This document shows positions 50,906 to 59,284 of a DNA stretch of 64,000 nt, one piece after another. The stretch lies in contig NZ_JAJNAY010000002.1 of assembly GCF_021010565.1 (NCBI RefSeq), positions 620,001-684,000 on the forward strand, written 5' to 3'. Under the pieces are notes generated by a model that worked only from the letters and a program-made list of their open reading frames with translations, did not search any database and had not been told where the DNA came from. Position 1 is the first letter of the stretch; each line of letters begins with the position of its first letter. The DNA is from Chryseobacterium turcicum (GTDB taxonomy: Bacteria > Bacteroidota > Bacteroidia > Flavobacteriales > Weeksellaceae). A program made the translations under genes and the position numbers.

Positions 50906-51553
50906 ATGAAGCCTAAATTAACCATTTTTGGTGAACCCATGCTCTATACTGAGGGTTTATCAAAACTCCTGACTCAAAGCAGTCTTTTTAACTCTGTTGA
51001 TTTGTGTAATTCTTACGAGACCTTACAGGAAAACCTTACAGGAAAACCGCCAGAATTTTTGATGATTAGTTCTAATATGCTTATGCTGACAGATCTTTTA
51101 AAAAATGTAGAAAAGATTACTGCACAAAACAAAACAATAAAAATTATTGTGATTGGCAACAGCTATGATATAATGGATATTAGAAAACTGTTTAATAAAG
51201 GTATAAAAAGCTACCTTGATAAAGACAGTCGGTACGATGAATTTTTGAAATCTGTACAAGCCTTACTTTCAAATGAAATTTACATCTGTGACTATGCAAA
51301 AGAGAAAATGATTAATTTTTTGAATACGGATGAAAAAAAACAAAAACTTCACATTCAAGATCCTCTTACCAAACGTGAAATGGAAATCTTAAAGCTCATC
51401 TGCGATGGATTAAGCAGTAAGGATATTTGCGAAAAGCTTTTTATAAGTATTAATACCGTAGAAACTCACCGTAAAAGAATTTTATTAAAACTGAATGTAA
51501 AAAATTCTGTCGGCGTGGTAAAATATGCCATTGCAAATCATATTATAGATTAA
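50906..51553 (+). CDS. LuxR/NarL-type regulator with degenerate receiver (CsgD-like)
   Basis: 215 residues. Residues 1-120 keep the receiver fold (EGLSKLL, IKIIVIGNSYD, GIKSYLDKDS with the Lys) but lack the phosphorylation site: the usual DD pair is GE (LTIFGEP), the phosphoacceptor Asp is Ser in FLMISSNML and the switch Thr is Gly. The C-terminal HTH is complete: LTKREMEILKLICDGLSSKDICEKLFISINTVETHRKRILLKL. Enterobacterial CsgD has the same length and also a non-canonical receiver. The gene faces the minus-strand csg operon. It is therefore the likely regulator of curli or the adhesin, independent of phosphorylation (inference). Confidence 0.82.
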   Translation: MKPKLTIFGEPMLYTEGLSKLLTQSSLFNSVDLCNSYETLQENLTGKPPEFLMISSNMLMLTDLLKNVEKITAQNKTIKIIVIGNSYDIMDIRKLFNKGIKSYLDKDSRYDEFLKSVQALLSNEIYICDYAKEKMINFLNTDEKKQKLHIQDPLTKREMEILKLICDGLSSKDICEKLFISINTVETHRKRILLKLNVKNSVGVVKYAIANHIID

Positions 51554-52070: not shown

Positions 52071-53582
52071 TTATTCATAATCTGGCATTTCTGCGTTGGT
52101 AAAGAGTGTTGTTCTCTGCATATCTGTCAAATCATTATTTAAATCTACGGTGATTACATTTCTCTGAGAAATATTATCATTAGAAGTATTGGTAAAAATA
52201 ATCTGAGCATTATTGGGTGAAAATCGAGGATCTAAGTCATTTGTACCTTGCGGTCTTTCACTTTCAGAAGATATATCATAGGTTATATTAGAGATCAAAT
52301 CATAGACAAAAATCTTGGTATCAAGCTGTCTGTAATTACCACTAACATCTTCAAAACCTGACATATCGCGAGTAAATAAAAGGCGATTACCATCAATAGA
52401 AAGATTTAAACCTCCACTCGCTCCTAAAGTTCCTGATAAAATTGTCTTTATGGTATTTCCCAACATATCGATGATGTAAATCTGGGTACCATACCCATTG
52501 ACACTATTTGTTTTTAATGCAATCTTGCTTCCATCGTAGCTCCAGTCGCATTCGGAAATCATCGTTCCGGAAGGTGCTGTGTAGACTAAATTTAAACCAC
52601 TTCCGTCTTTATTTATTCTATAGAGTTTATTAAAGTTTGCATAGAGAAACTCTTGGCCATTGGTACTCCACGAGAAATCCATTTCATTATTATTAAATCC
52701 TGCGACGGGTACTGTTGTTACTTTAAACACATTAGACCCATCAGGATTAGCAGTATAAATATGTGAATTACCGCCTTCAGTTCTTAAAAACGCAATTAAT
52801 CCTGCATTATTATTTTTCCTAGGTCGCCAACTATTGTAAGACGAATTTGTAAATTGGAAATTTGCTCCCAACTCATTGCTCGACACGATGAGTAAGTTTC
52901 CATTTTGTTTTTGTACATAATGATAGCGATTAAGAGGAACCATATTGGTGGTAAACTTACTAATCGCACTGAGTACAGGCGCATGTATACCATCAGAAAC
53001 TGAAACCTGCCAGAAATAGCTTACCCCAAATTTAAGATTCGAAAGTGTATAATGATTGGTAAGAAGATCATTGACCTGGATAATATTGGTATCAAGATTA
53101 TTTTTAATGGTTAAATTATATTTTAGCACATCGGCTGTATCGGGATCAGTAGAATTCCAAGTAAGCTCAACGATGAGAGGTTGATTCACCGCATTGTCTA
53201 TAGGACTGAGCAATAACGGAGTTGTAGGCGGTGTATTGAGTGAATTATCATCATCCATTTCGAAAACCGCGGTTACTACCTGATCTTGTTTCTGAATATT
53301 GACTGCCTGAAACGTTGTAATATAACCACTCAGCTCAGCCTTTACAGAATAATTTCCAATGGGCATGTTTTTAATCTCAAAAGTACCATCTGTACCCGTA
53401 AATACCGTTTCGGTGGTGGGTGCGGTAAAAATTTTCACATTTCCCAGAGGAACATTCGTACCTCTTTTCACTACTTTTCCTTTTAATATTCCCGATTGAG
53501 CCTGCTCTACAAGCTCTTCATTACAAGAGAGAAGGGAAAATGAAAGGATAATTATACCGAGAATTTGTAATATAGTTTTCAT
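52071..53582 (-). CDS. Lipoprotein with carboxypeptidase-regulatory-like, Fn3 and TolB-type propeller domains
   Basis: 503 residues. Lipoprotein signal LLSCNEELVEQ. Then a carboxypeptidase-regulatory-like domain (ILKGKVVKRGTNVPLGNVKI...GNYSVKAELSGY, about 33-100), an Fn3-like domain (TPLLLSPIDNAVNQPLIVELTW...YFWQVSVSDG, about 120-210) and a WD40/TolB-like propeller (NSHIYTANPDGSNVFKVTT, CDWSYDGSKIALK, DLDPRFSPNNAQIIFT, about 255-490). It is the last gene of the csg operon, 11 bp after csgG, and has no counterpart in enterobacterial curli operons. A surface anchor or fibre-docking role is inferred. Confidence 0.85.
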   Translation of the reverse strand: MKTILQILGIIILSFSLLSCNEELVEQAQSGILKGKVVKRGTNVPLGNVKIFTAPTTETVFTGTDGTFEIKNMPIGNYSVKAELSGYITTFQAVNIQKQDQVVTAVFEMDDDNSLNTPPTTPLLLSPIDNAVNQPLIVELTWNSTDPDTADVLKYNLTIKNNLDTNIIQVNDLLTNHYTLSNLKFGVSYFWQVSVSDGIHAPVLSAISKFTTNMVPLNRYHYVQKQNGNLLIVSSNELGANFQFTNSSYNSWRPRKNNNAGLIAFLRTEGGNSHIYTANPDGSNVFKVTTVPVAGFNNNEMDFSWSTNGQEFLYANFNKLYRINKDGSGLNLVYTAPSGTMISECDWSYDGSKIALKTNSVNGYGTQIYIIDMLGNTIKTILSGTLGASGGLNLSIDGNRLLFTRDMSGFEDVSGNYRQLDTKIFVYDLISNITYDISSESERPQGTNDLDPRFSPNNAQIIFTNTSNDNISQRNVITVDLNNDLTDMQRTTLFTNAEMPDYE

Positions 53583-53593
53583 AGTTTAAGTTT

Positions 53594-54961
53594 TTATTTT
53601 TTTCCTATATAAAAGTTTATTCCAATCGAAAATCTCATAGCCTGATCTTTTCTTTTTCCGTTTATCAAACCATCCCAATCATCTTTAAAGCCAAGATCAT
53701 ATTGTGAAGAAACTCTTATTCCTAAGTTTTTTCCGACCATATATTCTAATCCGACACCAAACTGCCCTTTGTACTGTGGTTTCATACCAGAATACATCGC
53801 TCCAACTCCTCCATAAACAAATGGGCTCAGCTTATACTGAGGGAAGATGACCGTTTCTAGATTCACCTCTGGAGTAAAATAGGTACGGGAAAAAATATTT
53901 TTATTTTCTATCGTGAAAACACTCGCGCTAACGTCTACATTTAAATAAGGATTAAAAAAATATTTGAATCCGAATTTACCTCCCAAATTAAACTTAGGGT
54001 TTACATAGTCGTCTTTTACTTTTTGTGTTTCAAGGTTGGTATACAAAGCAAATTGCTGTCTGTAATTGCTTGGGTATTTATTCCCTACTACTCTATTCAG
54101 ATTATCATTCTGCTCGTTTTCGTAGCTTTTTATAAGGGGTTTGTAAACTCCTATATTTTCATCTACAGCCTTACCCCATATATTGTCTCTTATTCCCTCA
54201 ACGATTAATCCTTTAACCGCTTTTTCTATGGCTTCTGTCACCGCAAGCTGCACGGGTTCGTTTTGGGTTAACCCAACCTCAGCTTCTAGAAGCCTTTCAG
54301 TATCAATATATCTGAAAAAACTTCCGTTAACACTAGTGGAAAGAATTGTTTTTGAAGTATAAACGGTTTTAAGAATCTCTCCATTTAAGGTAGAAACCGC
54401 ACGAAGATAAATAGTTATTCTATCTTGTCTATATTGTGTAGAGGCACCGATACCGAAATATCTGGCACCCAAACCTCCTGTTAAGACATTGCTATCATAA
54501 GAAATAACCCCGCCCTCTAGCAAGATTCCTGCATAGAGAAGCGGAGGTAATGTCTGGCTATTTTTATCTGCGTCTTTAAGATATTCTTGACGGGTAGAGC
54601 GAATAATCTGTCTCTCATTAAGTAAATTAGCAATATTTTCTCTTTCTATAGGGATAAACCATTTGCTATCTTCTAATGCTTTAATAAGAATTGTTGTAGT
54701 ACCTTGAGGTACGGCAGTACTCCAATTATTACCATTTTCGGATGGTTTATATTGACCGGTTTGATCTCTAAACTTATAGACCCCTATTACAATACGTTCC
54801 TTTGGCGGGATAAGATCTTTCAGCTCTCTTGTGTAAGCTGTATTTTCGCCAAGTGTTGATTTTTCTGGTGTAGAAGGAAGCCCAAGTAAAGAACTACATC
54901 CTATAGAAACACATACAAGTGTAAGACAGAAAAAAATCCTGATGTAAATGTAAAATTTCAT
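53594..54961 (-). CDS. csgG: CsgG curli secretion channel with extra C-terminal barrel-like domain
   Basis: 455 residues, against about 277 for enterobacterial CsgG. Lipoprotein Cys in SIGCSS. The CsgG core (about 40-270) is very clear: IVIGVYKFRDQTGQYK, STAVPQGTTTILIKALEDSKWFIPIER, NLLNERQIIR, GLGARYFGIGASTQYRQD, SKTILS, RYIDTERLLEAEVGLTQNEPV. At the eyelet the E. coli Tyr51/Asn55/Phe56 region reads YKPSENGNNWS, so Phe is Trp and the Tyr is absent. About 180 extra residues follow and look like an OmpA-type barrel (LGGKFGFKYFFNPYLNVDVSASVF, AMRFSIGINFYIG). CsgG exports curlin subunits across the outer membrane. Confidence 0.93.
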   Translation of the reverse strand: MKFYIYIRIFFCLTLVCVSIGCSSLLGLPSTPEKSTLGENTAYTRELKDLIPPKERIVIGVYKFRDQTGQYKPSENGNNWSTAVPQGTTTILIKALEDSKWFIPIERENIANLLNERQIIRSTRQEYLKDADKNSQTLPPLLYAGILLEGGVISYDSNVLTGGLGARYFGIGASTQYRQDRITIYLRAVSTLNGEILKTVYTSKTILSTSVNGSFFRYIDTERLLEAEVGLTQNEPVQLAVTEAIEKAVKGLIVEGIRDNIWGKAVDENIGVYKPLIKSYENEQNDNLNRVVGNKYPSNYRQQFALYTNLETQKVKDDYVNPKFNLGGKFGFKYFFNPYLNVDVSASVFTIENKNIFSRTYFTPEVNLETVIFPQYKLSPFVYGGVGAMYSGMKPQYKGQFGVGLEYMVGKNLGIRVSSQYDLGFKDDWDGLINGKRKDQAMRFSIGINFYIGKK

Positions 54962-54980: not shown

Positions 54981-55391
54981 TTATTTGGGAATTACAATTT
55001 CAGATTGATCACCTGTACCAGTATCCAAAATACTAATTAGCAATCCTTGCGCAGTAGTTGTAATCTGTATGTACAACGAACCCAAAAGATAGTTTCCGGG
55101 TTTAAGAGCCCCATCACCAAATTGATTTTCGAAAAGCTTTTGTGATAATTGACTGAGAATCTGCCTATTTAAGCTTTCGCTAAAACTATCCATCGAATTC
55201 ATGCCGTTTAGCAAATCACTCAAGCTATCTTTCTCATCAAATTGATTTTGAGCATTTGCAGAACTTAATAGCCATTGGTAATTGAACGTATCACCCCCAA
55301 ATGCGGGATTGACAGGTTTATAAACAAGTTGCTGGGATTTTCCAAGGAAAAAACCGCAAAACAGTATAAGAAAAACATAAAGTGGTTTCAT
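54981..55391 (-). CDS. csgF: CsgF curli assembly factor
   Basis: 136 residues with a signal peptide (FCGFFLGKSQ). The mature N-terminus, QLVYKPVNPAFGGDTFNYQW then LLSSANAQNQF, carries the NPxFGG and LLxxAxAQN words with which CsgF inserts into the CsgG channel. CsgF couples secretion to surface nucleation. It lies between csgE and csgG with gaps of 11 and 19 bp. Confidence 0.93.
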   Translation of the reverse strand: MKPLYVFLILFCGFFLGKSQQLVYKPVNPAFGGDTFNYQWLLSSANAQNQFDEKDSLSDLLNGMNSMDSFSESLNRQILSQLSQKLFENQFGDGALKPGNYLLGSLYIQITTTAQGLLISILDTGTGDQSEIVIPK

Positions 55392-55402
55392 GGTAATTGT
55401 TT

Positions 55403-56134
55403 TTAGTATATGAATTCATTCTTAATAAGATTTTTCTTAGCAATAAATTCTTTAATCAAACGAAAACTCATAAGCATCTGTTCTTTTAAATAATCTTCAC
55501 TAGGGTTGGTCATAAAACTATAGATTACCTTATCTTCAATTGCGATATTAATTTGCCCGTTTACTCCACGTGTGGGAACTTCTGATATAGTAATCGTAGC
55601 GTTGTCTTTTTTCGGAATTTGATTGTATTGCATATAAAACAAATCGTAGAAGTCTTTCCCTACTTTGGTTTTTGTTTCATCGATAGTCAACCCTGTTAGT
55701 TCCGAGAAAACTTCTTCCTCAATTTTACTTGCTTTTTTACTAAAAGCTTCTTGATTTATTTCTAAACTATCTTTAGCAATCAATTTTTGAGATTCTTCGT
55801 CTCTTATATATAAGAATACTTTCAAAGCATCTTTCGTTTCTAGATTAACACTAAGTTCTGATAGTTTTTTTACTTCATTAGGATTTATTGTAAACTTTCC
55901 GCTTTGCCGGTTGTTTGAAAGATTGCCTCCATTTCCTTTTTTAATTGATACTAAGAGATAATTGAGTTCTTTATATACAGGAGTAGTATTGGTAGCAAAC
56001 GCTTTGATAATAAACTGCTGTTCTATAGTCTCACGCTCTAATCTGGCAGATACTTTTCTTTCTTCCTGTGCATAACAACCAAGGGACAGAAAGACGGTAA
56101 GAAAAGTAAATAATAAAACATTTTTAGTGATCAT
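55403..56134 (-). CDS. csgE: CsgE with an N-terminal CsgC/CsgH-like domain (fusion)
   Basis: 243 residues, about twice the size of enterobacterial CsgE. After a signal (LGCYAQ), residues about 25-130 form an Ig-like domain resembling CsgC/CsgH: LLVSIKKGNGGNLSNNRQSG, KFTINPNEVKKLSELSVNL and ALKVFLYIRDEES align with the REGSSGQSQTKQ...LTKLSLNI region of CsgC. Residues about 145-243 are CsgE: LTGLTIDETKTKVGKDFYDLFY, ATITISEVPTRGVNGQINIAI and DKVIYSFMTNP. CsgE caps the CsgG channel and recruits subunits; CsgC/CsgH blocks early amyloid formation. The fusion would place the chaperone at the channel mouth (inference). The CxC of CsgC is absent. Confidence 0.88.
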   Translation of the reverse strand: MITKNVLLFTFLTVFLSLGCYAQEERKVSARLERETIEQQFIIKAFATNTTPVYKELNYLLVSIKKGNGGNLSNNRQSGKFTINPNEVKKLSELSVNLETKDALKVFLYIRDEESQKLIAKDSLEINQEAFSKKASKIEEEVFSELTGLTIDETKTKVGKDFYDLFYMQYNQIPKKDNATITISEVPTRGVNGQINIAIEDKVIYSFMTNPSEDYLKEQMLMSFRLIKEFIAKKNLIKNEFIY

Positions 56135-56145
56135 TACTTTTCTAT

Positions 56146-56556
56146 TTAATAATTCCGCATAAAAATGGTCATGTTATCACCTTTTACATTTACTTTCATA
56201 TTTTCAGATACGCTGTTGCTCCCCGTTATATCGATAATATTATTATTACCTTGGGTGTTGATGACATTTTTTGTTTTGGTATCAGAAAAAGAATTGTTAA
56301 AATATAAACTGTTGTAATCTCCAAGCTGCTGTATCATAATATTGGTTTTCGCATTAATCATCGCTTCAATATTATTAGAATCTCCTATTTGTAAAATATT
56401 AGAATAAGAAGTCTGATTATCTACAGCTTGTAATATTGCTAAATCTAAAACACTATTACTATTAATTTGATTCCATTCTACTTGTTGTGATTTCAGAGAA
56501 GAAAAAGAGAGAAATAAAAATCCTAAGCAAAAAAAGAATCTGGTGAGCGCATTCAT
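56146..56556 (-). CDS. csgB: CsgB-like minor curlin (nucleator candidate)
   Basis: 136 residues with a signal peptide (SFSSLKSQ). Curlin-type repeats are fewer and more degenerate than in csgA: VLDLAILQAVDNQTSYSNIL, QIGDSNNIEAMI, QLGDYNSLYF and NTQGNNNIIDI. The end is MTIFMRNY. Position between csgA and csgE and the weak repeats suit a nucleator like CsgB. The assignment of nucleator role is inference. Confidence 0.75.
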   Translation of the reverse strand: MNALTRFFFCLGFLFLSFSSLKSQQVEWNQINSNSVLDLAILQAVDNQTSYSNILQIGDSNNIEAMINAKTNIMIQQLGDYNSLYFNNSFSDTKTKNVINTQGNNNIIDITGSNSVSENMKVNVKGDNMTIFMRNY

Positions 56557-56719: not shown

Positions 56720-57538
56720 TTAGTTAGATTGTACAACAGTTAATGAATTTGAATTTCCAATCTGAGTTCCTAAATGGAAGTTATAAGTTCCAAATTGGCT
56801 CACTGATATCATATTGTCGTTTCCTAATTGGAAGTCAATGGCAGTGTTAGAATTACCTACTTGTAATTGATACAGCTCATTGTCTGAACCAAGCTGTAAT
56901 CCTGTTGCTGAGTTATCATTACCTACTTGAGCTGAAATCGCTACGTTATCTGCACCAATCTGAGTATGAGAAGCCATATTATCATTACCATCTTGATATT
57001 GTAAAATATAGTTTCCGCTTCCTAATTGCACAGCAGAAGCATCATTTCTTCTACCTAATTGTACCTGTACAGCAGTATTATCAATACCTAACTGGAAAGC
57101 AGATGCTACATTTCTTCTACCATCCTGATATTGTACTACATCATTACCCACTCCCCATTGTATAGAAGTAGCATCGTTTCTTCTACCAATTTGTGTTTGT
57201 TCAGTAGTATTAAAAGCTCCTATTTGCCATGTTTGGGCAGAGTTTCTGTTTCCATACTGATTTGTTTCGTTTGAGTTTAATAACCCTACTTGATCTACAT
57301 CAATAGAGTTTCTGTTACCATTACTCGAAGCAACATTAATGTTTAAAGCTCCAGTTTGGTCAATGTCTGCTGTGTTACGATTACCGTCTTGTAAAAGATA
57401 GTTTTGATTAAAAAATCCTGTTTGATTCACAGTGGCTACATTTAAGTTTCCCATTTGAGTACTCACATCTACGTTTGCTTGAGCGAATGCGAATCCTGTT
57501 GCTAGTAGTGTAAAAACACCAGTGATAAAATTTTTCAT
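56720..57538 (-). CDS. csgA: CsgA-like major curlin with eleven 22-residue repeats
   Basis: 272 residues with a signal peptide (LATGFAFAQ). Nearly the whole mature chain consists of curlin repeats of the form QxGxxNxxxxxQxGxxNxxxxx: for example QIGRRNDATSIQWGVGN and QDGNDNMASHTQIGADN. I count eleven 22-residue units, against five in E. coli CsgA. The Gln and Asn ladder positions are almost all kept; three units carry GRRN. This would form a long beta-solenoid amyloid subunit on the cell surface. It has its own promoter and a hairpin behind it, fitting higher expression than the secretion genes. Confidence 0.93.
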   Translation of the reverse strand: MKNFITGVFTLLATGFAFAQANVDVSTQMGNLNVATVNQTGFFNQNYLLQDGNRNTADIDQTGALNINVASSNGNRNSIDVDQVGLLNSNETNQYGNRNSAQTWQIGAFNTTEQTQIGRRNDATSIQWGVGNDVVQYQDGRRNVASAFQLGIDNTAVQVQLGRRNDASAVQLGSGNYILQYQDGNDNMASHTQIGADNVAISAQVGNDNSATGLQLGSDNELYQLQVGNSNTAIDFQLGNDNMISVSQFGTYNFHLGTQIGNSNSLTVVQSN

Positions 57539-57844: not shown

Positions 57845-57961
57845 ATGCATAAAAATATTTCACCATACTCAGAGGAGAAATTTTTAGAATTTTATTTAGA
57901 AATCTTGGATCAATGCCAAAACCTGGGGAGAAAAATAAAAATACTTAATTTTGGGGTATGA
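57845..57961 (+). pseudogene. Short frame cut by the insertion sequence
   Basis: A 38-residue frame (MHKNISPYSEEKFLEFYLEI then read-in from the IS) begins outside the element, 2 bp after a promoter box, and runs into it, stopping in an ATGA overlap with the transposase start. Only the first 20 or so residues are host sequence. It may be the beginning of a gene disrupted by the IS; too short to identify. Confidence 0.35.
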
Positions 57962-58311
57962 TTAACGATGCCGGGCTACTCAAATTATTATTACCAGAAT
58001 ATTTAATCGAGCACTTCGATATTATAAATTTTGAAGAAGAAAACAAAATTTTACATCTTTATTTCGAAGAGAAAAGTAGGATTCCAAAAGAGTTTTCTTC
58101 TTTAACCTTGTATTCCAAAGGTTTTTTAGAAGAAATTACGGTGGATGATTTTCCGCTTCGTGGAAAAACCGTAAAACTCCACATCAAACGAAGAAGGTGG
58201 ACAGACACGAAAACGGGGAATATTCTCCAAAGAGATTGGACTCTTATTGCCCAAGGAACACGCATGACACAAGATTTTGCCGAGTTCTTAAAAAAAATCT
58301 GCCGATGCTAA
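57958..58311 (+). CDS. Transposase N-terminal part (ISAon1 type)
   Basis: 117 residues. It carries the short N-terminal region with TVKLHIKRRRWTDTKTG and ILQRDWTLIAQGTRMTQDFAEFLKK. The frame ends just after a run of eight A (58290-58297). A one-base change of frame within that run joins it to the downstream frame as FLKKSADAKALSCKTIGELYGV, restoring a continuous protein with an HTH. So the product is probably made as a fusion by slippage. Confidence 0.85.
   Translation: MINDAGLLKLLLPEYLIEHFDIINFEEENKILHLYFEEKSRIPKEFSSLTLYSKGFLEEITVDDFPLRGKTVKLHIKRRRWTDTKTGNILQRDWTLIAQGTRMTQDFAEFLKKICRC
58290..58297 (+). promoter_or_regulatory. A8 slippage site joining the transposase frames
   Basis: TTAAAAAAAATCTG at the end of the first frame. 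Loss of one A, or gain of two, in the transcript links codon AAA to TCT GCC GAT in the second frame, which has no stop between here and 59284. Long A-runs of this kind are known sites of transcriptional slippage in IS elements. Confidence 0.65.
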
Positions 58312-58315
58312 AGCC

Positions 58316-59284
58316 TTGTCCTGCAAAACCATTGGAGAGCTTTACGGTGTGGAGGGCAGAAAATTTCAAAGACAGTACAAACATTCCCTCAGCGATTTTA
58401 AAAATTGGGAGCAAAAACCGCACGCCGAAGACTGGATTTTGCATCCTCAAAATATTTCAGAGCAGCTCTCTCTGGATGAAGTTGCCCTTTCTGATGGCGA
58501 ACTCTATACCGTTCTCACCTCAAAAAAGGGAAAGGGTAGAAAAGGCTCAATTGTAGCCATTATCAGAGGAATACAGAGTGAAACAGTAATTGAACATCTT
58601 TTTAAAATCAACAGAAAATTAAGAATAAAAGTAACGGAAATTACTTTAGATATGGCTGGGTCTATGAAACTTATTGCCAAAAAATGTTTTCCTAATGCAA
58701 CACCGGTTATCGATCGCTTCCATGTTCAGAAACTCGCCACAGAAGCCCTTCAGGAAATAAGGATTAAGCATCGCTGGCAGGCCATTGAGCAAGAAAATAA
58801 CTTGCTCACGGAAGCGAAACAAAAGAAGCGAAAACCTATAATTAAAGTTTTTGAAAACGATGACACCCGAAAGCAACTTTTAGCAAGAAGCAGATACCTG
58901 CTTTATAAAACTAGAGAAAAGTGGACTTTATCACAAAAACAAAGAGCAAAAATCCTATTTAAGGAGTATCCCGATTTAGAAAAGGCGTACAATTTATCAG
59001 ATGGGCTCAGGAAAATTTATAATCAGAACATTCAAAAATCTGTCGCTATGTTAAAGTTAGTCCATTGGTTTAGAGAAGTGGAAGAATCTGGATTTAAATC
59101 CTTTAATACCTTAACAAAAACTATTATGCATAACTACAACGGCATTCTCAATTATTTTAACCAGCGAAGCACAAATGCTTCAGCAGAATCTTTCAATGCC
59201 AAAATAAAAAACTTCAGGTTACAACTTCGAGGTGTACGAGATAAAGCATTTTTCCTATTCAGATTATCAAAACTTTTTGCCTAG
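58316..59284 (+). CDS. Transposase catalytic part (ISAon1 type, DDE)
   Basis: 322 residues if read from TTG 58316, though it is more likely translated by slippage from the upstream frame. DDE residues: LSLDEVALSDGELY (first Asp), ITLDMAGSMK and VIDRFHVQKLA (second Asp region) and NASAESFNAKIKNFR (Glu). The C-terminal arrangement is ISL3-like. The stop codon lies 1 bp before the right inverted repeat. The gene is intact, so the element may still be mobile. Confidence 0.88.
   Translation: MSCKTIGELYGVEGRKFQRQYKHSLSDFKNWEQKPHAEDWILHPQNISEQLSLDEVALSDGELYTVLTSKKGKGRKGSIVAIIRGIQSETVIEHLFKINRKLRIKVTEITLDMAGSMKLIAKKCFPNATPVIDRFHVQKLATEALQEIRIKHRWQAIEQENNLLTEAKQKKRKPIIKVFENDDTRKQLLARSRYLLYKTREKWTLSQKQRAKILFKEYPDLEKAYNLSDGLRKIYNQNIQKSVAMLKLVHWFREVEESGFKSFNTLTKTIMHNYNGILNYFNQRSTNASAESFNAKIKNFRLQLRGVRDKAFFLFRLSKLFA

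Follow-up and report, generated by a model that had tools for sequence, protein, structure and literature searches.

We analysed a 64,000-nucleotide (nt) stretch of the Chryseobacterium turcicum genome (NZ_JAJNAY010000002.1, 620001-684000; hereafter the window, within which positions are counted), where a single gene of a curli operon encodes a CsgC/CsgH-like domain, of the family of curli amyloid inhibitors, in front of CsgE, the cap and specificity factor of the CsgG pore. Open reading frame (ORF) calling and Pfam place the operon on the minus strand, in the order curlin, curlin-like ORF, fusion gene, csgF, csgG and an ORF with a CarboxypepD_reg-like domain. Its features are as follows.

55403..56134, minus strand: csgH-csgE fusion gene, 243 amino acids (aa), ATG start (ORF; Pfam CsgE; NCBIfam CsgH/CsgC)
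56069..56134, minus strand: signal peptide, about residues 1-22 (sequence; helix 2-21 in the model; cleavage before Q23 by eye)
55751..56056, minus strand: CsgC/CsgH-like seven-stranded immunoglobulin (Ig)-type domain, about residues 27-128 (profiles, model, alignment)
55700..55750, minus strand: linker, about residues 129-145 (predicted local distance difference test score, pLDDT, <50 at 134-144)
55406..55699, minus strand: CsgE domain, residues 146-243 (Pfam)
56720..57538, minus strand: curlin major-type subunit, 272 aa, 9 curlin-repeat stretches (Pfam PF07012, E 3.9e-25)
56146..56556, minus strand: curlin-like second subunit (CsgB position), 136 aa (degenerate QxG..N repeats by eye; no Pfam match)
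54981..55391, minus strand: csgF, 136 aa (Pfam PF10614, E 3e-37)
53594..54961, minus strand: csgG pore lipoprotein, 455 aa (Pfam PF03783, E 1.8e-66; extra C-terminal part, predicted eight-stranded barrel)
52071..53582, minus strand: ORF with a CarboxypepD_reg-like domain (lipoprotein by eye)

An earlier description of this gene, made from the sequence alone (the original prediction), had read the same ORF as a CsgC/CsgH-like domain followed by CsgE, and both halves of that description hold. Pfam CsgE (PF10627) matches residues 146-235 with E 1.7e-15 and 57.6 bits against a cut-off of 25. The N-terminal part is matched by NCBIfam CsgH (NF041112) over residues 32-114 (E 5e-8; 32.9 bits, just below the cut-off of 35), by NCBIfam CsgC (NF007507) over residues 61-119 (E 1.1e-6; 28.7 bits, cut-off 75) and by Pfam CsgC (E 2.6e-4; 21.5 bits, cut-off 25); in a six-frame genome search the same domain reached 35 bits and was flagged above the CsgH cut-off. 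That cut-off is exceeded in 49 of the 197 genomes of the window's family, with a best score of 52.4 bits, and at E ≤0.01 the CsgH model recovers 12, and the CsgC model 10, of 15 aligned proteins (the window's included). A separate CsgH encoded in the curli cluster of another genome (G166) and the window domain share 32% identity when aligned (E 3e-10, in a single comparison). The two segments that had originally been aligned with CsgC by eye are the ones that phmmer aligns to CsgC (2xsk), in a single-sequence match that is weak by itself (E 0.36). The structural check proposed at the time also agrees, since the AlphaFold model of the N-terminal domain has seven strands in the Ig-type sandwich of the CsgC/CsgH family and its top Foldseek matches are CsgC and CsgH.

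The gene also lies where members of both families are expected: it directly follows two curlin-type ORFs, as a CsgC/CsgH-family gene should, and its CsgE part combines the fold with a place beside csgF and csgG. Q23 is nearly invariant across 25 aligned proteins (window protein included), and the nearest relatives, where named, come from Chryseobacterium. The isoelectric point (pI) of the window domain is 8.2 and that of the curlin 4.2, so that the domain lies above curlin by at least the expected margin of about two units, in line with what is described for CsgC and CsgH (Taylor et al., 2016; PMC4838910; papers given here with a PMC number are cited for the portions of their text that were covered). 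Sequence and predicted structure support a protein in which a signal peptide is followed by a CsgC/CsgH-like domain and, after a linker of low predicted confidence, by CsgE.

The distribution of the two forms suggests that the fusion stands in for a separate CsgH gene, present in the curli cluster of some other Bacteroidota. Of 395 genomes drawn from the phylum, 41 have CsgE and 22 match the CsgH profile. The domain lies directly in front of CsgE in 15 of these 22 (two of them frame-split); in six (G166, G387, G195, G309, G344 and G231) CsgH has a gene of its own, 3.7-6.6 kb away from CsgE and on its strand, with no CsgH match before CsgE; and the last, G019, has a weak CsgH match in a long ORF and no CsgE. 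By the CsgH profile, none of the 22 CsgH-positive genomes in this draw has the fused and separate forms together. Within the window's family (197 genomes), CsgE occurs in 75 genomes and CsgH in 73, every CsgH adjoining CsgE, in one open frame in 69 and split in 4. In the family of G316, CsgE occurs in 78 of 349 genomes, with open frames of at least 238 residues except in G316 itself and in G851; here the N-terminal domain is inferred from open-frame length. G851, which lies at a contig edge, and G1037 are short only through a contig end and were not counted as split; locus L013 is absent from the alignment (A1), in which the N-terminus of CsgE from G344 is not included. Two CsgE open frames of about 404 aa (L157 in G794 and L158 in G962) apparently begin with two tandem CsgH-type domains, judged by eye.

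The survey of CsgE lengths in Bacteroidota that the original prediction had called for finds N-terminal extensions, either the CsgH-like domain or, elsewhere, LysM. Among 10 chosen proteins of other lineages in the phylum, four have a LysM domain before CsgE (Pfam, 1.7e-12 to 2.6e-7):

L005:1048-1794, LysM-CsgE fusion (Pfam LysM)
L002:1486-2241, LysM-CsgE fusion (Pfam LysM)
L008:1462-2337, LysM-CsgE fusion (Pfam LysM)
L016:934-1788, LysM-CsgE fusion (Pfam LysM)

Since LysM takes the place of the CsgH-like piece in these lineages, the CsgE N-terminus has, judging from these sequences, acquired different partners across the phylum; LysM could tether the CsgE cap to peptidoglycan. We found no paper with both CsgE and LysM among the open-licence PubMed Central (PMC) papers, the literature searched throughout.

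In many relatives the two domains are encoded in different frames of one locus. The genus-level group of G316 (Flavobacterium-type) has CsgE in 60 of 249 genomes, and four more from the phylum draw bring those analysed to 64; with the CsgE frame taken from hidden Markov model coordinates, 28 of the 64 genes are split and 36 are in frame. All 28 split genes share one layout: a CsgH ORF of 132-142 residues, a run of exactly ten adenines followed by G (A10-G) in the zero-frame phase A_AAA_AAG, and CsgE in the -1 frame, with a zero-frame stop 0-10 codons after the run. Named genomes, a set overlapping the 28, agree: among the best 80 of 192 relatives 38 are split, all with A10-G, including Flavobacterium johnsoniae CI04 (L170), F. 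hibernum, F. pectinovorum, F. frigidimaris, F. aquidurense and F. piscis. Plain gene fission, considered for the short CsgE ORFs of L026 and L027, was dropped, since A10-G and the shared -1 phase are present there. The four split genes of the window's own family are in G970 (A10-G) and in one further genus of that family, represented by G973 (A9-G) and by G1016 and G1029 (both A10-C, under one genus code). Of the in-frame Flavobacterium-type genes, 7 of 36 have A9-A11 at the junction and a -1-frame stop at most 11 codons away, although such stops near a run are not rare by chance. Two in-frame Chryseobacterium fusions have long A-runs in the linker, A10 in L232 (Chryseobacterium shigense) and A9 in L236 (Chryseobacterium sp. 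RU37D), and slippage may occur there too; in the 22 usable of 42 in-frame named genes, runs of at least nine adenines number 2 in 1,980 linker bases and 5 in 14,103 bases elsewhere, too few for a general claim.

The run is conserved in the relatives beyond coding need and in the phase that slippage calls for; this holds for 28 of 28 split Flavobacterium-type genes, for 38 of 38 named loci with a split and for 49 of 49 distinct split genes. The last set, obtained from 66 split sequences, consists of kin, so that codon counts within it are not independent; the junction lysines are AAA-AAA-AAG in every one, fourfold-degenerate sites agree in 44% of comparisons, and 37 of the 38 other twofold columns conserved in at least 95% of rows use both codons. 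AAG accounts for 101 of 602 lysine codons outside the junction in the 28 split genes. Off the junction, on the same strand, runs of ten or more adenines occur twice in 273,676 flanking bases and not at all in the 47,184 bases of the rest of the genes; for nine or more the counts are 15 and 5. Across whole genomes, G-A10-G occurs 5 times in 5.6 Mb (G316), twice in 6.1 Mb (G526) and twice in 3.0 Mb (G970), one of them at the junction in each; G375 has three, none at the junction, and the window's genome has none.

On a tree of 75 proteins, the split state needs seven gains or losses, and the starred branches force at least three. Junction columns were excluded from this quick tree, as was G1029 (near-identical there to G1016); many branches are long, and the direction of change is not fixed by it. 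Split genes occupy a main Flavobacterium clade; they are also found in G616, whose own clade is otherwise in frame, and in G970, G973 and G1016 of the window's family. For runs ending in G, the phase A_AAA_AAG is kept in all 28 split genes, the phylogenetically separate G616 included, and also in G970 and G973 of another family. The plain reading of these sequences is that the same device arose repeatedly; repeated loss from an old split state would also account for them, and we do not favour it over repeated origin.

We propose, with a probability of roughly 0.65, that the window gene is a fixed fusion encoding one periplasmic protein in which two curli chaperones work in series, and that relatives with the slip site make CsgH both apart and fused. 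The part of this that sequence and structure prediction support is the pair of domains behind a signal peptide, encoded within a curli operon alongside curlin, csgF and csgG. The CsgE part would form its usual nine-fold cap under CsgG, and nine Ig domains on flexible linkers would hang below the pore, keeping acidic curlin chains disordered while CsgE feeds them in; inhibition by the window domain is predicted from its sequence and model. In the split genes, normal reading would yield CsgH alone and slippage by the ribosome or by RNA polymerase the CsgH-CsgE fusion, and the slip site would let the cell make free inhibitor besides the fusion. Because a slip site of A9-A10 is conserved in many Flavobacterium and a few members of the window's family, we suggest that the CsgH and CsgE domains act both apart and together.

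Several observations weigh against this proposal. In hmmscan the window N-terminal domain scores under the curated CsgH and CsgC cut-offs, and Ig folds of unrelated enzymes score the same Z as CsgH against it. The predicted template modelling score of the model is 0.43, so that the model does not fix the relative placement of the two domains. There is no cysteine after residue 23 and hence no counterpart of the disulphide made by a CxC motif in CsgC and by a distant cysteine pair in CsgH (Taylor et al., 2016; PMC4838910); for this reason we name the domain CsgC/CsgH-like, neither CsgC nor CsgH. In the 28 split genes the domain has a pI of 5.0-8.9 (median 5.55), and it is below 7 in 6 of 12 fused relatives; as a basic pI is not general, the electrostatic argument holds for the window and is not carried over to Flavobacterium. 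The domain is not needed everywhere, since the CsgH profile matches nothing in 20 of the 41 genomes with CsgE in the phylum draw. The window gene itself has no slip site, its longest A-run being 7 and that of the junction and linker 6. At the slip sites of the relatives we found no conserved stimulatory stem-loop or Shine-Dalgarno-like element: a Shine-Dalgarno-like sequence is present in 5 of 28, there is no consensus stem, and folding of the 60 nt downstream of the junction gives a mean z of -1.07 (8 of 28 below -2), compared with -0.44 (3 of 28) for a control stretch. We therefore do not assign the slip site to the E. coli dnaX type.

The N-terminal domain might instead have no relation to CsgC or CsgH and, as an Ig-like spacer or anchor, do no more than position CsgE, much as LysM may elsewhere in Bacteroidota. 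We consider this unlikely, given the matches of most aligned proteins to the CsgH and CsgC models, the alignment of the window domain with the separate CsgH of G166, and the fact that, by profile, fused and separate forms never occur together in the phylum draw. That the split Flavobacterium genes are homopolymer sequencing errors or decaying pseudogenes, with no recoding, is the least probable of the alternatives. Runs of ten adenines are indeed prone to indel errors, and A9-A11 stands at the same place in some in-frame genes, but the run is exactly A10 in all 28 split Flavobacterium-type genomes and all 38 split named loci. Moreover, the CsgE frame is intact and under purifying selection in the split genes (median ratio of nonsynonymous to synonymous substitution rates, dN/dS, 0.08, highest 0.40; 133 pairs with dS 0.1-1.5), and by a simple pattern a curlin-repeat ORF lies upstream in 38 of 38 split loci and a CsgF-like ORF downstream in 37 of 38. 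It is very unlikely, too, that CsgE is made as its own protein by re-initiation, with the A-run incidental: an ATG, GTG or TTG precedes the CsgE domain somewhere in 14 of the 28 split genes, but there is none in the other 14, the CsgE frames inspected have no apparent signal peptide at their start, so that the product would remain cytoplasmic, and AAA-AAA-AAG would not be fixed. Missing start codons and signal peptides together make the frame change look necessary to bring CsgE to the periplasm.

Whether the frameshift is ribosomal or transcriptional, with RNA polymerase adding one A, bears on mechanism rather than on the existence of two products, and we give the two even odds. The constant phase A_AAA_AAG, kept in all 28 split Flavobacterium-type genes, G616 among them, and in G970 and G973, favours the ribosome; this site is much more shift-prone in E. 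coli than other such sites (Atkins et al., 2016; PMC5009743). Polymerase slippage is favoured by the lack of stimulators, by the length of the run, as bacterial polymerases are reported to slip on 9 A (Atkins et al., 2016; PMC5009743), and by the A10-C genes in two genomes of one genus code; the flipping of the frame between relatives while the run stays points the same way.

The fusion is a new version of known curli chaperones. Its N-terminal domain shares with CsgC of E. coli and CsgH of Rhodopseudomonas palustris the seven-stranded Ig-type fold, a related profile, a place beside curlin genes and, in the window only, a basic domain facing acidic curlin; unlike them, it is the N-terminal half of a CsgE protein, lacks cysteines and is known here from sequence and model. 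Its C-terminal domain resembles E. coli CsgE in profile, fold and csgF/csgG adjacency, with about 120 extra residues in front, whereas E. coli CsgE stands alone. The separate CsgH genes of the six other Bacteroidota encode the same domain by profile in the same genome stretch, but apart from CsgE. For CsgC and CsgH, very low ratios to CsgA suffice to inhibit its nucleation (PMC4838910), while CsgE inhibits at 1:1 and also caps CsgG as a nine-fold assembly (PMC5135000, PMC6957492); in E. coli, CsgC and CsgE are separate proteins with very different doses on curlin (PMC5135000). The slip site, for its part, would add a new example to a known type of recoding. It shares with dnaX (A_AAA_AAG in E. 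coli, an A-run in Thermus) the slippery A-run and a short and a long product of one gene, and the seven in-frame genes with A9-A11 and a nearby -1-frame stop resemble the reversed frame orders of dnaX (Atkins et al., 2016; PMC5009743); unlike dnaX, it concerns a secretion chaperone, shows no stimulators, has products that are predicted, and is found in relatives and not in the window.

We found no CsgH-CsgE fusion and no curli-gene frameshift in the text of the literature searched (for part of the searches, the top of longer result lists). CsgH-like sub-families are described in Bacteroidetes, in text from which the word 'fused' is absent in the portion covered (Taylor et al., 2016; PMC4838910); a 2025 review (PMC12822426) reports curli operons as widespread in Bacteroidota and in its covered portion names no fusion; and csgC is stated to be missing from all Bacteroidetes genera in the covered portion of Dueholm et al. 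(2012; PMC3521004). The word 'curli' is absent from the covered portion of Antonov et al. (2013; PMC3711429) and from the first 300,000 characters of Atkins et al. (2016; PMC5009743). Databases name the fused proteins CsgE or CsgH, and the short Flavobacterium ORFs CsgH, CsgC or hypothetical; the fusion accounts for proteins named CsgE, CsgH or hypothetical. The same literature yielded no other recoding event in an amyloid secretion system. We know of none ourselves.

Other features of the locus deserve mention. The window CsgG has about 190 extra C-terminal residues, and its model (mean pLDDT 62.3) has eight strands at about 304-452; this part matches OmpA/NspA-type barrels in Foldseek (NspA 1p4t, E 5.2e-7, target template modelling score 0.75), so each CsgG pore subunit may have a small barrel of its own. 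All 13 relatives chosen for comparison have a longest ORF of 451-491 aa downstream of csgE, and the 12 that were aligned are 46-77% identical to the window CsgG. Past the operon end lies a LuxR-type regulator (50906-51553, plus strand) whose best NCBIfam match is MctR, with CsgD (2.7e-14) ranked eighth, and whose receiver apparently lacks the usual acidic residues, by eye; within Bacteroidetes, csgD is reported only in Spirosoma in the covered portion of Dueholm et al. (2012; PMC3521004). An ISL3-type transposase (element 57958-59284, plus strand; Pfam 7.9e-52 for 58316-59284) lies immediately upstream of the operon, preceded by an ORF without a Pfam match and with an A8 run (58290-58297) that may be a frameshift site belonging to the element.

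On the question of how curlin stays soluble up to the pore, this naturally occurring fusion suggests that inhibition can take place at the pore itself, and it offers structural studies one soluble protein. Genes with the slip site amount to a built-in dose experiment, since locking the A-run either way should give the fusion only or CsgH only and should reveal which job needs which form. We think it rather likely, judging from the sequences, that many Flavobacteriia steer curli export with one slip-site gene that would give both a free CsgH inhibitor and CsgH-CsgE, slippage setting the ratio of roaming to pore-bound inhibitor, and that some lineages, the window's included, have fixed the fusion while others keep the slip site in either frame order.
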